Below are positions 23,055-29,593 of a DNA stretch of 40,931 nucleotides, piece after piece. Under the pieces are notes generated by a model. That model saw nothing but the letters and a program-made list of their open reading frames with translations, did no database searches and was not told the origin of the DNA. Numbering within the stretch: position 1 is the stretch's first letter; each line of letters starts with the position of its first letter. The DNA is from Planctomycetales bacterium (GTDB lineage Bacteria > Planctomycetota > Planctomycetia > Pirellulales > Pirellulaceae), in the NCBI GenBank assembly GCA_020426595.1, contig JAGQPS010000014.1, positions 1 through 40,931 on the forward strand. Direction: 5' to 3'. Both the position numbers and the translations under genes were made by a program.

Positions 23055-24128
23055 TCAGCGAGGCTTCTTCTTGCTGATCTTCTTGGCCGGCTTGCTGGCG
23101 GTCTTCTTAACCGCCTTCTTAGCGGGCGTGGCCGGCTTCTTGCCTGTATTGCCTGACGGCTTCGCCGCTTTCGGTTGCGGCTTCTTCGTCGGGCTCGGCT
23201 TGCTACCGCTGGCGACCGCCTTTTTGGGAGGAGCGGTCTTCGCGGGCCGCTTGGGCGCGGCCTTCACCGGAGCCGCCTTGGCTCCCTTGACATCCGGCTT
23301 GCCCGAGGGCGCCGCGGGCTTCTTGCCGGCGGCCTTCGCGGCGGCCGCTTGCTTGGCGGCCAACTTCTTGGCTTGCTTCTCGGCTTCCTTTTCGCGAGCC
23401 AACTTGGCGGCGGCGGCTTCCTTCTCGGCCGCTTCCGCGGCCGCCTTCACCGCGGCGTTATGCCGGGAACGCGCGTCGGAATCGATTTCGGCGATCAGAG
23501 CCCACACCTTGTTGCTGTTGGGTGAGGCGAGAAACTGCACGGCCAATTGATGGGCGGTGGAAAAGAACTCGGCTCCCTTGGCTTTTGGAATCGCTCGCTC
23601 AAGGCCCGAGACATTGCCGGAGGCCAACTCCTTGGGAGTCGCCAGATCGAGGACGCCCAACAACTTGAGCATCGCCTCGTCCAACGGAATCACGTGGCCA
23701 CCGAGGGCGGACTGAGCCACATAGCCGGCTCCAAAATCGGTGACTCCCTTGAACGACTTGAGCTTCTCCACCGCCTTGCCCAAGTTCTCTTTTCGCAGGA
23801 ACTCGAGATCGAACGCGTAGTACGTCTCGAAGACGCTGTGCAGCGATCGTTTGACGCGAGCCGCGCTCGCCGTCGGGTCGACGAAACCGACCATCGACTC
23901 GGCGAGTTCCGGGATCGTCGTGACTCGGACCTCGTTCCAGTCGTGGTAGATCTCCTGGAGTCGAGCGTAGGCTTCCTCGGCCTGCTCGTAGCCGGAGTTC
24001 TCGAGACAGCAAGCGAAAATCAGCGTCTCGAACACCGAGCGGTCGCTGGCGGACTTGACCGGCTGGAAGTGCTTACGAGCGACTTTTTGGAGCTTGCCGA
24101 ACTGATCAGCGCGATTGGAAGATGCCAT
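23055..24128 (-). CDS. HhH-GPD-fold protein with histone-H1-like Lys/Ala/Pro tail
   Basis: 357 residues. Residues 1-~215 follow the endonuclease III layout: an N-terminal helical part, a helix-hairpin-helix GPD segment FKGVTDFGAGYVAQ (126-139), then IPLDEAMLK with Asp150 at the catalytic aspartate position. The catalytic lysine of EndoIII (LPGVGRKTA) is replaced by Phe132, and no C-terminal four-cysteine Fe-S motif is present. Residues ~222-357 form a basic tail rich in AAKAA, KKPAAP and PAKKAVKK, like bacterial H1-like Hc1 proteins. I infer a non-glycosylase DNA-binding or structural role. It follows rbfA by 129 bases on the same strand and may be read with the nusA-infB-rbfA cluster. Its name is uncertain; the fold call rests on motif reading. 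Confidence 0.78.
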   Translation of the reverse strand: MASSNRADQFGKLQKVARKHFQPVKSASDRSVFETLIFACCLENSGYEQAEEAYARLQEIYHDWNEVRVTTIPELAESMVGFVDPTASAARVKRSLHSVFETYYAFDLEFLRKENLGKAVEKLKSFKGVTDFGAGYVAQSALGGHVIPLDEAMLKLLGVLDLATPKELASGNVSGLERAIPKAKGAEFFSTAHQLAVQFLASPNSNKVWALIAEIDSDARSRHNAAVKAAAEAAEKEAAAAKLAREKEAEKQAKKLAAKQAAAAKAAGKKPAAPSGKPDVKGAKAAPVKAAPKRPAKTAPPKKAVASGSKPSPTKKPQPKAAKPSGNTGKKPATPAKKAVKKTASKPAKKISKKKPR

Positions 24129-24257: not shown

Positions 24258-24716
24258 TCATGAATCGGACTTGCTGTCTTCCGAAGCCTCGTCATCCTCC
24301 GGCGAGTCTTCAGGTTCACTTCCGGCTTCCGGAACGTCATCGACCAGCTCTTCCTCCGAGACGTCGTCCTCGGCCGGGGGCAGGACTTGATCCAGGATCC
24401 GCGCGACCGCCAGTGAGTGCTTGACACCCTTGTCGATCACGAAGCGGAGGCGAGGAATGTAGCGCGTGTCGAGCCGATCGGCGACCTTGCGTTGCAGGAA
24501 TCCCGCGGCGCTCTCGAGTCCATGCAGGGCGAGGGTTTCCTTCCGTTCATCGCCCATGATGCTGACATGCACCTTGGCGTGACGGAGGTCGGCCGACACC
24601 TCGACATAAGTCACGGTGACGTCGCGCACACGCGGGTCGCGAATTTCCGTGAGTATCGCGAGGCTAACCGTTTCGCGAATCGCTTCGGCAACTTTGAGAA
24701 CGCGTCGAGAGGTCAT
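24258..24716 (-). CDS. rbfA: Ribosome-binding factor A
   Basis: 152 residues from ATG 24716; a GTG at 24773 is in frame, but the family begins with a helix like SRRVLKVAEAIRETVSLA, which fits the later start. The KH-like core shows DPRVRDVTVTYVEVSADLRHAKVHVSI, then FLQRKVADRLDTRYIPRLRF and LDQVLPPA near the end, all as in RbfA. RbfA binds 30S precursors and helps mature the 16S rRNA 5' region. The C-terminus carries an extra acidic Glu/Asp/Ser tail of about 35 residues (EDSPEDDEASEDS), a style shared with NusA here. It lies downstream of infB, the usual order. No clear ribosome site, suggesting coupled translation. Confidence 0.95.
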   Translation of the reverse strand: MTSRRVLKVAEAIRETVSLAILTEIRDPRVRDVTVTYVEVSADLRHAKVHVSIMGDERKETLALHGLESAAGFLQRKVADRLDTRYIPRLRFVIDKGVKHSLAVARILDQVLPPAEDDVSEEELVDDVPEAGSEPEDSPEDDEASEDSKSDS

Positions 24717-24899
24717 CAGGTTCGTCGTACGGAGGATGGACAGTCGAGGGATCCGGGGGACGCATCGTGGCACGCGAGCGCGAGAGCAACGATGGCGTGA
24801 CTAAGCCGATCAGGAGACGAAATCTCCGCGGCACCCATCGAGATGCCGCGGAGTTGATTCGCCGTTTCGGTACGCTCGCGTACGAATCGCGAACGACCG

Positions 24900-25175
24900 T
24901 TAGAGAGTCCGCGCGACATGCTCGATCCGATAGGCCTCGAGCGTGTCGGCTTCCTTAACATCGTTGAAGTTCATCAACTTGATACCGCATTCCATGCCTT
25001 GACGAACTTCCTTCACGTCGTCCTTCTCACGACGCAAGGTGTCGATGGCGTAGTCGCCGATCACGCGGTTCTCGCGAATGACCCGAATTCGGCTATCGCG
25101 TTCGATCGAACCACGCATGACTCGGCAGCCCGCGATCGTTCCGACTCGGCTGACCGTGAACGTCTTGAGCACCAT
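24900..25175 (-). CDS. infB: C-terminal domain of IF-2 in a shifted frame (part of infB)
   Basis: 91 codons from an internal ATG to a [23 protein letters not shown] and [20 protein letters not shown] are the domain IV signatures of IF-2, which binds initiator tRNA. The frame differs from the main infB frame. There is no ribosome site before the ATG (the preceding bases are TGCGGCACCGCC), so independent translation is unlikely; it is best read as the displaced end of infB. Confidence 0.88.
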
Positions 25176-27841
25176 GGCGGTGCCGCAGTATCCACGGTGG
25201 TTTCGGTCGGCTTGAGCTTGCCTTCGAGGGTCGCTTTGATGTCGTCCGCCACCTTGTAGATGATGTCGTAACGACGCACCTCGACCTGACGCTCGTCGGC
25301 CAGGGACCGAGCGACTTCGTCGGGCACCACGTTGAAGGCGATGATCACCGCTTGCGAAGCCTGGGCGAGCGTCACGTCGGCCACCGAAACTCCGCCGACA
25401 CTCGCCTGCAGGATTCGGATCTCGACTTCCGGATGGGAAAGCTTGCCAAGCTCCTTTTGAATCGCCTCGATCGAACCGCGCGTATCGGCCCGAATGATGA
25501 GGTTGAGCGTGACCTTTTCCTCGGTCTTACCCAGCGTGCCGCTTTCGAGCATCGATTGGAAATCGACCAACGAGACCTTGGTCGTGATCCCCGAAAGGCT
25601 CTGCTCGCGACTGCGGTCCGAACGAGTCTCGGCGATCTCGCGGGCCTTGGCGATGTCATCGACCACGTAGAACCGATCACCGGCTCCGGGAGCGACATCG
25701 AGACCCGAGAGGTTGACCGGAGTACTCGGTCCCGCCTCTTCCAACCGTTCGTTGGGACGAAGCGTGTCGTACATCGCCTTCACGCGACCGTAGGCTCCAC
25801 CGCAGACGACGACATCGCCGACTCGCAGCGTACCTTGCTGCACCATGATCTTGGCCATCACGCCTCGGTCCGACTCTTGCTCGGCTTCCAAGCAAACGCC
25901 GGTCGCGGCTCCGTCCTGACGCGCCTTGAGCTCATAAAGCTCGGCGGTCGCCAACAGGGTTTCGAGCAGCGTATCGATGCCGTCGCCGGTAATGGCGCTC
26001 GTGCGAATCACTTCGACGTCGCCACCCCATTCACTCGGCAGCAACTCGTGTTGAGCCAGTCCTTGGTAGACCCGGTCGAAGTTCACGCCTGGCAGGTCGC
26101 TCTTGTTGAGCGCCACCACGATCGGCACTCCAGCGGCCCGAGCATGCGAGATCGCTTCCTCGGTTTGCGGCATCACACCGTCGTCGGCCGCGACAACCAA
26201 CACCGCGATGTCGGTCACGTTGGCTCCGCGAGCCCGCATTTCAGTAAATGCTTCGTGGCCCGGCGTATCGACGAAGGCGATCCGACGACCATCCTTCTCC
26301 ACCGAGTAGGCTCGAATGTGCTGGGTGATACCACCCGCCTCGCCCGACACGACATTGATGCCGATGATGCGATCGAGCAAGCTCGTCTTGCCGTGATCGA
26401 CGTGGCCCAGGAAGGTCACGATCGGCGGCCGGCCCTCGAGGTTCGCCTCGTCCGGCTCGACCTCGAATTCCTCGAGCAACTGATCCTCCAGCGAATGCGC
26501 CTGGCGGATTTCGAGCTTGAGCCCCATGTGCTCGGTCAGGAACCGAGCGGTCTCATCCTCGAGCGTCGCGTTGATGTTGGCCATCTGGCCCATCTCCATC
26601 AGCGACTTCAGCACGAGCCCAGCGGGAACTCCGGCGGCTTCCGAGAACTCACGAATGGAGCAAGGAAGTTGCAGGACCGCGGCCTCCTTGCGTGGAGCCG
26701 AGGTGCTGACCGAGGCCTGACGCCGTCCCCGTCGGAAACGACGATACTCGGCGGGCGACATTGGCGAATCATCGTCACGGCCGTCGAACGAGCGACGACG
26801 GGCTCGCTTCGCCGTGCGAGCATCGCGGGCATTCCCCATGCCTGGTTCGGAATCGGAGTCCTTCCCAGCTGGTGATTTCTTCTTGGGACCGCCTCGCCGA
26901 TTGTTCGGATCGGTATCGATCAGACCTCCCGGGGGCCCTGGGACCTCGCGTCCCCGGTCCTTGCCTTCGCCCTTCCGCTTCTCTTGCTTCGCCTTGCTGC
27001 TCTCGGCGAATTGCTGCAGAGGAGCCATGCCACCGCCCGACTTGGCCTTGCGGATCGCATCCTGGGGGAGGGCGATATCCGGCTTTTGCACCTTCTCGGT
27101 CGGAGCCTTCGGCTGCATCGAGGGCTGCTTGACGTCGGGCATCGCCGCGACTCGCACGACCGGGTCTCGACGCCCCACGTCGCGTTTGGCGCCACCCTGA
27201 CGATCATCGTCCCGGCCGCCTCGAGTTCGAGCGGTCAGATCGCGCAGCGGACCGGTCCGATTGCGGAACATGTCGTTACGCGATGGACGAGTTGGCGCGG
27301 CCGGTTCCGTCACTTCGCGTTCCCCACCGTCACTCCGCTGAGGCGGTTCGGGAGCGCGAGTCGGCGGAGCGGGATTGGCTCGTCCGGTCAGCGGTCCCGA
27401 TCCAGCGGGCGTCGGAGTCGACGCGGGAGTCGTCGGAGGAGCCACCGGCGCCACCACCTCGGGCGACGTCTCGACGGGAGCGGCTTTCGCGGCGACGGAA
27501 GGAGTCTCGACCGGCTCCACCGCTTCGGAAGCTTCCGGGGCGGGAGTCGCGGACGGGCTACTGGTGGGAATCACCGGAATTTGCCCCTTCGGTCCAGGAG
27601 CGGCACCACGAATCGGTGCCGAACGGACCGCCGGTCCAATCGTCGCCCCAGATGGGGGCTGATTCGTCGGCGCGCTATGGGCGGAAGGCGCGAGGTGACT
27701 CTTGACTTTGTCTACCTCGTCATCGGTCAGGCTGGCCAGGGCCGAGCCTTTTCCGTGAATGCCGAGCTTGGCGCAGATATCAACGAGCTGCTTATTCTCA
27801 ATGCCGAGGTCTTTGGCGAGCGTATAGATCCGAATGGGCAC
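24900..27841 (-). CDS. infB: Translation initiation factor IF-2, with apparent frameshift near the 3' end
   Basis: Begins at GTG 27841 with AAGGAGGG upstream. The first frame runs to a stop at 25061 (926 codons), but only residues 1-885 are IF-2. Visible: an N-terminal IF2N segment ([17 protein letters not shown]), a long Ala/Pro-rich and charged linker to ~390, and a second IF2N. The GTPase follows: GHVDHGKT (479-486), DTPGHEAF (525-532) and NKSDLP (579-584). Domains II and III run through [15 protein letters not shown] (ending at 885). The remaining conserved domain IV (fMet-tRNA binding) continues in another frame at 24900-25175. Joining at ~25186 restores a normal IF-2, so about one base is missing or the ribosome shifts by -1. 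IF-2 is essential, so a sequencing or assembly error is the most likely cause. Confidence 0.93.
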
Positions 27842-28057: not shown

Positions 28058-29593
28058 TTAGGAAGACACGGCCCCTTCGTCTGAATCGGCGGGAGATTCC
28101 CCATCGGAGCTCTCCGCAGGCTCCGAGGATGAATCCGGTGTGATCGCTTCGTCGGTAGGCGATGATGGTTTCTTGCCCTCGGCGGTCTCGTCCGTGGACT
28201 CCGCTTCCTCCACCACGCCTTCGTCGGTGGTGGTGGTCGAGTCAGTGGTGGTCGAGTCGGCTGATTCCCCAGTATCGACCGCGGCTTCAGCTTCGGCGGG
28301 AGCCTCGGTCGAGGACTCAGTGGGAACCTCGGTCGAAGCTCCAGTGGAGCCGGTTTCGACCGCTTCACCCGACGCGAAGGCGGCATCGGCGGCATCGATC
28401 TTGGCTTGTTCTCGCTGTCGGCGTCGTTGCTCTTGAGCAACCGCCTCGGCTTCCTCCGCCTTCGCCTCGGCCTGTTCGACGATCTCGTCGACCTGCTCTT
28501 CGGTGAGGCCGCCCATTTCCATCAAATCGTCCGGTTCGATCACGGAAAGATCATCGTAAGACAAATAGCCTTCACCGACCAGACGGTTGGCCAACTCTTC
28601 ATCAACTCCGGTCAAAACCATGAAGCCTCGTACGGCTCGGTCGATTTGCTCTTCCAACTCCTCCTGGGTCATGATCTCGATGTCCCAGCCACAGAGCTTG
28701 CTGGCAAGCCGCACATTCTGGCCTCGGCGACCAATCGCAAGGGACAGTTGGTCCTCACGCACCAGCACGATGGCTCGGCCAAGCATCTGACAGAGGATCA
28801 CCTCGTCGACCTCGGCGGGCTGCAGGGCATTGCGAATCAGCACCTGCGGATCGGCATCGAATCGAACGATGTCGATTCGCTCCCCACCCAACTCGTCGAC
28901 GATGTTCTTAATGCGGTTACCCCGCACGCCAACACAGGCTCCCACGCAGTCGACTCGTTGATCGATGCTGCTGACGGCCACCTTGCTCCGATATCCCGGC
29001 TCACGGGCGATCGAGTTGATATTAATGACGCTGTCGGCGATCTCGGGGATTTCCTGCTCGAACAAGCGCTGCACGAGCAACGGTCGCGTTCGGCTGAGCA
29101 CCACCTTCACGCGGCTCCCTTGAGGCCGCACCTCGATGATCATCGCCCGGACTCGCTCGTTCGGATGATGTCCCTCACCCGGAATCTGCTCACTGCGAGG
29201 CAGAATGGCATCGAGCCGCCCCAAGGACACGATCGTCGCGCCACCTTCGTTCTGGCGAACCGTGCCGGAAATCAACTGGTCCCGCAATGCGTCGTACTCG
29301 GCGATCAGCACGTCTCGCTCGGCTTCTCGCACCTTCTGAATAATGACTTGCTTGGCCGTCTGCGCGCCGATTCGACCGATGACTTCCTCGTAGTCGAGCG
29401 ATTCGCCATTGACGGCTCCGTTGATCGTTCCCTTTTCACGATCAATCGTGAACCACACCTCGGCCTCGTCGCCGTAGTGTCGCTTGGCGGCCGTCACGAG
29501 CGCGGATTCAATCGCCCGAAACACGACATCCTTGTCGATGCTCTTCTCTCGGTGCAACGAATCAACGATCCGCAACAAATCGTTCGCGTTCAT
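28058..29593 (-). CDS. nusA: Transcription termination/antitermination factor NusA
   Basis: 511 residues. N-terminal RNA-polymerase-binding domain (1-~100), S1 domain (~108-170, [24 protein letters not shown]), and KH1/KH2 (~195-310) with [27 protein letters not shown] and [14 protein letters not shown]. Then comes one helix-hairpin-helix AR-type repeat (~325-375, [17 protein letters not shown]). NusA tunes pausing, termination and antitermination. The last ~110 residues are an acidic Ser/Thr/Glu/Ala tail with repeating [14 protein letters not shown]-type units and [10 protein letters not shown]. Its ATG overlaps the stop of the upstream ABC ATPase gene by four bases, so translation is coupled. 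The rimP gene that usually precedes nusA is missing here. Confidence 0.95.

Follow-up and report, generated by a model that had tools for sequence, protein, structure and literature searches.

Described relatives of the fold and of the genomic slot

The protein studied here, P0001 from a Planctomycetales bacterium, shares features with several described proteins that differ from it in other respects. Monofunctional DNA glycosylases of the DrEndoIII1/DR2438 type (NF053634; PDB 4unf, 8a5c, 8a5f) have the whole HhH-GPD fold in common with P0001 and are its best profile match among solved structures, but DR2438 keeps the catalytic Lys and Asp, the hairpin GxG and the Fe-S cluster, of which P0001 retains only the Asp, and P0001 carries an extra DxNExRV motif and a basic tail. 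In DrEndoIII1, Arg61 and Tyr100 assist in holding the flipped lesion (PMC9268735). DrEndoIII3 (PDB 4uob) likewise has the EndoIII fold and is without detectable activity on the usual substrates (PMC9268735); it differs from P0001 in having both catalytic residues, Lys and Asp, and it is a tight binder of damaged DNA. The plant demethylases ROS1/DME (PDB 7yhp) match P0001 by sequence profile and by structure, but they are active bifunctional 5mC glycosylases and much larger. S. pombe Mag2, likened here by concept and not by sequence, is a non-catalytic paralog within a glycosylase family (PMC4433238), although it is AlkA-type rather than EndoIII-type and has no translation link.

The proteins RimM and RimP are unrelated to P0001 in fold and sequence, but in some lineages the P0001 family has the genomic slot of rimM after rpsP; any functional equivalence would be putative. 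In most bacteria, rimM normally follows rpsP. RimM gives the head of the 30S subunit its shape and is believed to share a pathway with RbfA, acting next to it (PMC8201178, PMC10582724), and both rimM and rimP are >90% conserved outside CPR bacteria (PMC12641178).

P0001 lies directly downstream of rbfA

The window, a 40,931-nt stretch of contig JAGQPS010000014.1, encodes P0001 on the minus strand at positions 23055–24128 (357 aa, ATG start), as an HhH-GPD-fold core followed by a basic tail. The preliminary description had reported an open reading frame at these positions, which holds with the correction that it runs from 24128 to 23055; plus-strand reading of the same interval is interrupted by stops. 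As an ortholog was found in 59 of 60 sampled genomes of the family Pirellulaceae, and as core dN/dS within the genus is ∼0.22 (dN 0.197, dS 0.893), indicating purifying selection, the frame is no chance reading. A search of its own genome found P0001 in single copy, with two canonical HhH-GPD enzymes encoded elsewhere.

Directly upstream lies rbfA (24258–24773, minus strand; Pfam RBFA, E 9e-29), which encodes a 30S assembly factor and is separated from P0001 by 129 bp on the same strand, confirming the earlier placement of the gene after rbfA in a translation cluster. The same gene run continues upstream with infB, encoding IF2 (24900–27841, minus strand; two-frame tblastn match), and a candidate nusA (28058–29593, minus strand) taken from the list of open reading frames and named by reading the sequence rather than by a profile scan. 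The infB frame is broken at 25163–25202, where IF2 homology on the minus strand resumes in another frame; because infB is essential, the break is probably an assembly or sequencing error of a metagenome-type assembly. The ruvX and P0001 genes are convergent. TrmD was also considered as a neighbour and was ruled out, as it is present but on other contigs or far off.

RbfA proteins of planctomycetes have an acidic C-terminal tail, with means of ∼9–13 acidic and <1 basic residue in ∼28 aa across class-wide loci, and the gene for this acidic-tailed RbfA adjoins that of the P0001 family protein, whose tail is strongly basic.

An EndoIII-type fold that has lost its catalytic features

Single-protein scans of Pfam, PHROGs and NCBIfam gave no usable family for P0001. 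An HMM check against the HhH-GPD and Hc1 families had been proposed, and in Pfam at E up to 10 neither matched P0001, nor did any other family; PF00730 (HhH-GPD) was matched by only 2 of 11 members of the set A1 (best E 0.031). The nearest NCBIfam model, MonDNAglycDR2438 (NF053634), scored 26.1 bits (E 5e-6), far under its curated 400-bit cut-off. Searched against solved structures, the A1 family profile matched Deinococcus DrEndoIII1 best (E 3.5e-17), with ROS1 as a second-tier match (E ∼1e-9).

We modelled the core (residues 1–222; 23463–24128, minus strand) with AF2 on an alignment of 63 orthologs, which gave a pLDDT of 95.4 and a pTM of 0.91. The top-ranked structural matches (Foldseek, VIA-align) were all DNA glycosylases: DrEndoIII3 (Z 17.3, level with the entries ranked just below it; rmsd 3.8 over 216 residues), ROS1 (Z 16.8, rmsd 4.2 over 217 residues) and EndoIII (Z 15.8–16.2). 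With Z of 14–17 against EndoIII, ROS1, MutY and OGG1 over 166–217 residues, the two-domain, all-helical EndoIII-like fold is present, in agreement with the HhH-GPD-type fold first read from the sequence.

To compare active-site columns, we used a class alignment of 75 orthologs, 59 from Pirellulaceae and 16 from another Planctomycetia family. Phe132 (codon 23733–23735, minus strand) occupies the position of the catalytic Lys, where every one of the 75 orthologs has F or Y. Two canonical planctomycete glycosylases placed on the same profile (L196, L199) carry Lys at column 132 and Asp at column 150, and alignment with DrEndoIII1 agrees on both columns; the preliminary description was therefore right about the missing Lys and its numbering. 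Its statement that Asp150 (codon 23679–23681, minus strand) is kept applies to P0001 itself, with correct numbering, but not to the family: the column is D in only 28 of the 59 Pirellulaceae members (N in 13, S in 10, C in 5 and G in 3), and in 16/16 of the other family. The EndoIII-type helix-hairpin-helix is likewise degenerate. The second Gly of its GxG is never Gly (T/S/N/P/D in 75/75), and the first is kept in 39/59 own-family members and in 0/16 of the other family. The claimed absence of an Fe-S cysteine cluster was upheld, as the CxnCx2CxnC motif is missing from P0001 and from all 159 Planctomycetia loci.

These columns bear on whether P0001 might be a monofunctional glycosylase that works by a different mechanism, as had been suggested. 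Monofunctional glycosylases need no Lys, and the Asp of P0001 and of all 16 members of the second family would fit such an enzyme. However, the catalytic Asp is gone from 31/59 own-family members and is scattered among members from deeper lineages, and the genome already has its canonical HhH-GPD enzymes. With N, S, C or G replacing the Asp so often within the own family, the suggestion is unsupported, and we regard it as extremely improbable.

The Fe-S motif of EndoIII serves DNA binding, and about half of the deep members (37/65) keep such a motif. Together with the fold shared with DrEndoIII3, this is consistent with a protein that binds damaged DNA non-productively, shielding abasic or damaged sites or recruiting repair without excision. 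There are precedents for such a role, as Mag2, which is non-catalytic and a weak DNA binder, has been proposed to protect AP sites (PMC4433238), and DrEndoIII3 binds damaged DNA while inactive on common substrates (PMC9268735). Nonetheless, DrEndoIII3 keeps the Lys and Asp that the P0001 family does not, the GxG is lost, and the wedge positions equivalent to DrEndoIII1 Arg61 and Tyr100 are N/D and D/E, respectively, in most Planctomycetia orthologs. As the genomic context is moreover one of translation, a damage-binding role appears distinctly unlikely.

In place of the lost residues the family has conserved elements of its own. The hallmark is DWNEVRV (residues 63–69; 23922–23942, minus strand), with N65, E66, R68 and V69 in 75/75 and D63 in 73/75 Planctomycetia orthologs; its N and R are invariant across the phylum set A3. 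A second element, HxxP (residues 145–148; 23685–23696, minus strand), has H145 in 74/75 and P148 in 70/75 class orthologs. The core has a slight net negative charge (−2).

K182 (23583–23585), with which a C-terminal helix begins, is Lys in 74/75 Planctomycetia orthologs and Ala/Glu/Pro in deep members. We considered it as a stand-in catalytic Lys and judged this improbable, as it is not kept in the deep members and lies 50 residues beyond the hairpin position.

The DxNExR family is present in many Planctomycetota families, and in this phylum survey the Lys column usually holds another residue; one surveyed member (L176) does have Lys there, combined with Ser at the position of the catalytic Asp. 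DWNExR[VIM] as an exact motif occurs in 129 of the 294 genomes of the phylum, whereas the reversed pattern gave one match; the count serves as a guide only, as many members read DLNE, DFND and the like and some matches fall outside the family. In a single scan of genome contigs, only Planctomycetota were found among the best 80 of 543 matches. A tblastn search of plasmids with a deep member gave only three matches, all alpha-proteobacterial and two annotated HesB; the two matches examined keep Lys and Asp and are without NExRV. In the tree, a supported branch (100/95) sets the canonical enzymes apart, with many inner forks weak and resolution limited at depth. The main text of a P. limnophila Tn-seq paper (PMC10632474) does not name the gene.

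The loss of the catalytic Lys, of Asp conservation, of the hairpin Gly and of the wedge positions, the gain of a new motif, and the existence of deeper relatives with the Fe-S motif together identify P0001 as related to DR2438/HesB/ROS1-type glycosylases but probably non-catalytic. The predicted structure with its matches, and the absence of the Lys in 75/75, thus support the earlier proposal of a DNA-repair fold that has lost catalytic residues and been turned to another use.

Translation genes flank the family across the phylum

Is the position beside rbfA peculiar to this genome? Among 159 Planctomycetia loci, 156 have rbfA upstream in the same orientation, and yebC, which encodes an RNA-binding translation factor (PMC12234827), lies downstream within 3.5 kb in 86. 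Deeper lineages show three translation settings: after rbfA, after ffh-rpsP and before yebC; in a few loci prfA lies further downstream. Pfam confirmed the neighbours as SRP54, S16, YebC, RbfA and RF-1, and shadow ORFs in the neighbour clusters were read on the opposite strand. In the deep set of 65 unique loci (two duplicates removed), 56 have at least one of rbfA, ffh-rpsP, yebC and prfA no more than 1.5 kb away in the same orientation, and 50 have one within 300 bp; nine have none of the five translation neighbours. Canonical HhH-GPD loci of the phylum had the same five genes nearby in 0/34 (Fisher 1e-18 against 56/65), a comparison in which loci were picked by similarity and not by context, and the five-gene list was picked after the recurrence had been noticed. 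Such recurrent linkage is what would be expected of a 30S assembly/translation factor.

Other genes recur downstream in deep lineages, namely hisG (for example L183, L216, L227), within 300 bp in 17/65 loci, and maf (for example L198, L229), in 14/65. Such neighbours are what would be expected of a passenger in housekeeping operons, whose expression is tied to growth and which acts elsewhere, for example in transcription or in a metabolic complex. Against this, several distinct translation contexts recur, with switches on the tree, and a single operon passed on by descent would not account for that. The context labels need ∼16 changes on the tree, with several switches between translation operons, so that the translation association does not stem only from one inherited arrangement. 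We therefore consider a passenger role very unlikely.

A basic tail beside translation genes

Residues 223–357 (23058–23462, minus strand) form the ∼135-residue Lys/Ala/Pro tail noted at the outset, which contains 36 Lys, 3 Arg, 40 Ala and 17 Pro and only 7 Asp+Glu. Searched alone against its own genome, the tail matched only itself. Its length ranges from 58 to 273 aa in the own family, and it diverges faster than the core in the within-genus comparison. The last 40 residues are basic at 152/159 Planctomycetia loci and in 42/65 deep members, compared with 5/34 canonical controls. Chlamydial Hc1 and eukaryotic H1 tails are similarly basic and Lys/Ala/Pro-rich, but in P0001 it is an HhH-GPD core that bears the tail, and no Hc1 or linker-histone H1 profile in Pfam matched it at E up to 10.

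The predicted fold and the Lys-rich tail would be equally compatible with DNA binding, and the preliminary description had raised a DNA-compacting role. P0001 might accordingly be a nucleoid protein, a dead DNA-binding module whose H1-like tail condenses the chromosome, as the strongly basic tail and the condensed nucleoids described in the phylum, on Gemmata (PMC3440768), could suggest. Apart from the tail, we found no positive evidence for this role. The gene is locked to translation genes and not to DNA-architecture genes, and this conserved neighbourhood points to ribosome assembly or translation; the wedge residues are now N/D, the hairpin Gly is lost, the core carries net negative charge, and the tail lacks an Hc1/H1 match. 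Furthermore, the family and its gene contexts also persist in deep lineages where the basic tail is absent. The nucleoid role is thus unlikely, retaining some weight because any polycationic tail can bind DNA.

RimM and RimP in Planctomycetota

RimM was detected in none of 79 Planctomycetota genomes with two models, whereas 10/10 bacterial controls were positive. RimP (RimP_N) was found in 11 of the 79 genomes and not detected in 68, and it coexists with the P0001-family gene in some genomes (G064, G109, G076). As RimM is missing from the whole phylum sample, its absence cannot be correlated with the gene inside the phylum. Since the gene sits in the usual place of rimM in rpsP-linked lineages, in a phylum where RimM was not detected and RimP only in a minority of genomes, the P0001 family may be a candidate replacement for RimM/RimP.

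Discussion

Overall, we favour P0001 as a repurposed factor of 30S assembly or translation that is assisted by its tail, a function that we infer from context only, on the indirect evidence of neighbouring genes, and consider reasonably probable. A ribosome helper is more likely than a DNA packer, as the gene is almost always beside ribosome-building genes in a phylum without detected RimM. In such a model, a DR2438/HesB/ROS1-like EndoIII ancestor would have given rise in Planctomycetota to a non-catalytic ('pseudo') DNA glycosylase linked to translation. The core fold might dock on the ribosome or a pre-30S particle through a DxNExRV/HxxP surface, while the Lys-rich, disordered tail might grip rRNA or the acidic RbfA tail. 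The protein would work in small-subunit maturation or translation, and in rpsP-linked lineages it could substitute for RimM/RimP. A broader scenario, which we put forward tentatively, is that the EndoIII fold was recruited early in Planctomycetota and took over 30S maturation from RimM/RimP, in a widespread non-orthologous replacement during which Lys, Asp and Fe-S were lost progressively and the basic tail was gained.

Several 30S assembly factors are thought to be near-universal outside CPR bacteria, with which a phylum without detected RimM contrasts, and the non-detection of RimM in all 79 and of RimP in 68 of the 79 Planctomycetota genomes may be of interest by itself. For annotators, the family is a warning that fold alone is insufficient to count such genes as repair enzymes. 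If our reading is true, P0001 and its orthologs would clearly exemplify how the fold of an enzyme can be put to use in building ribosomes.
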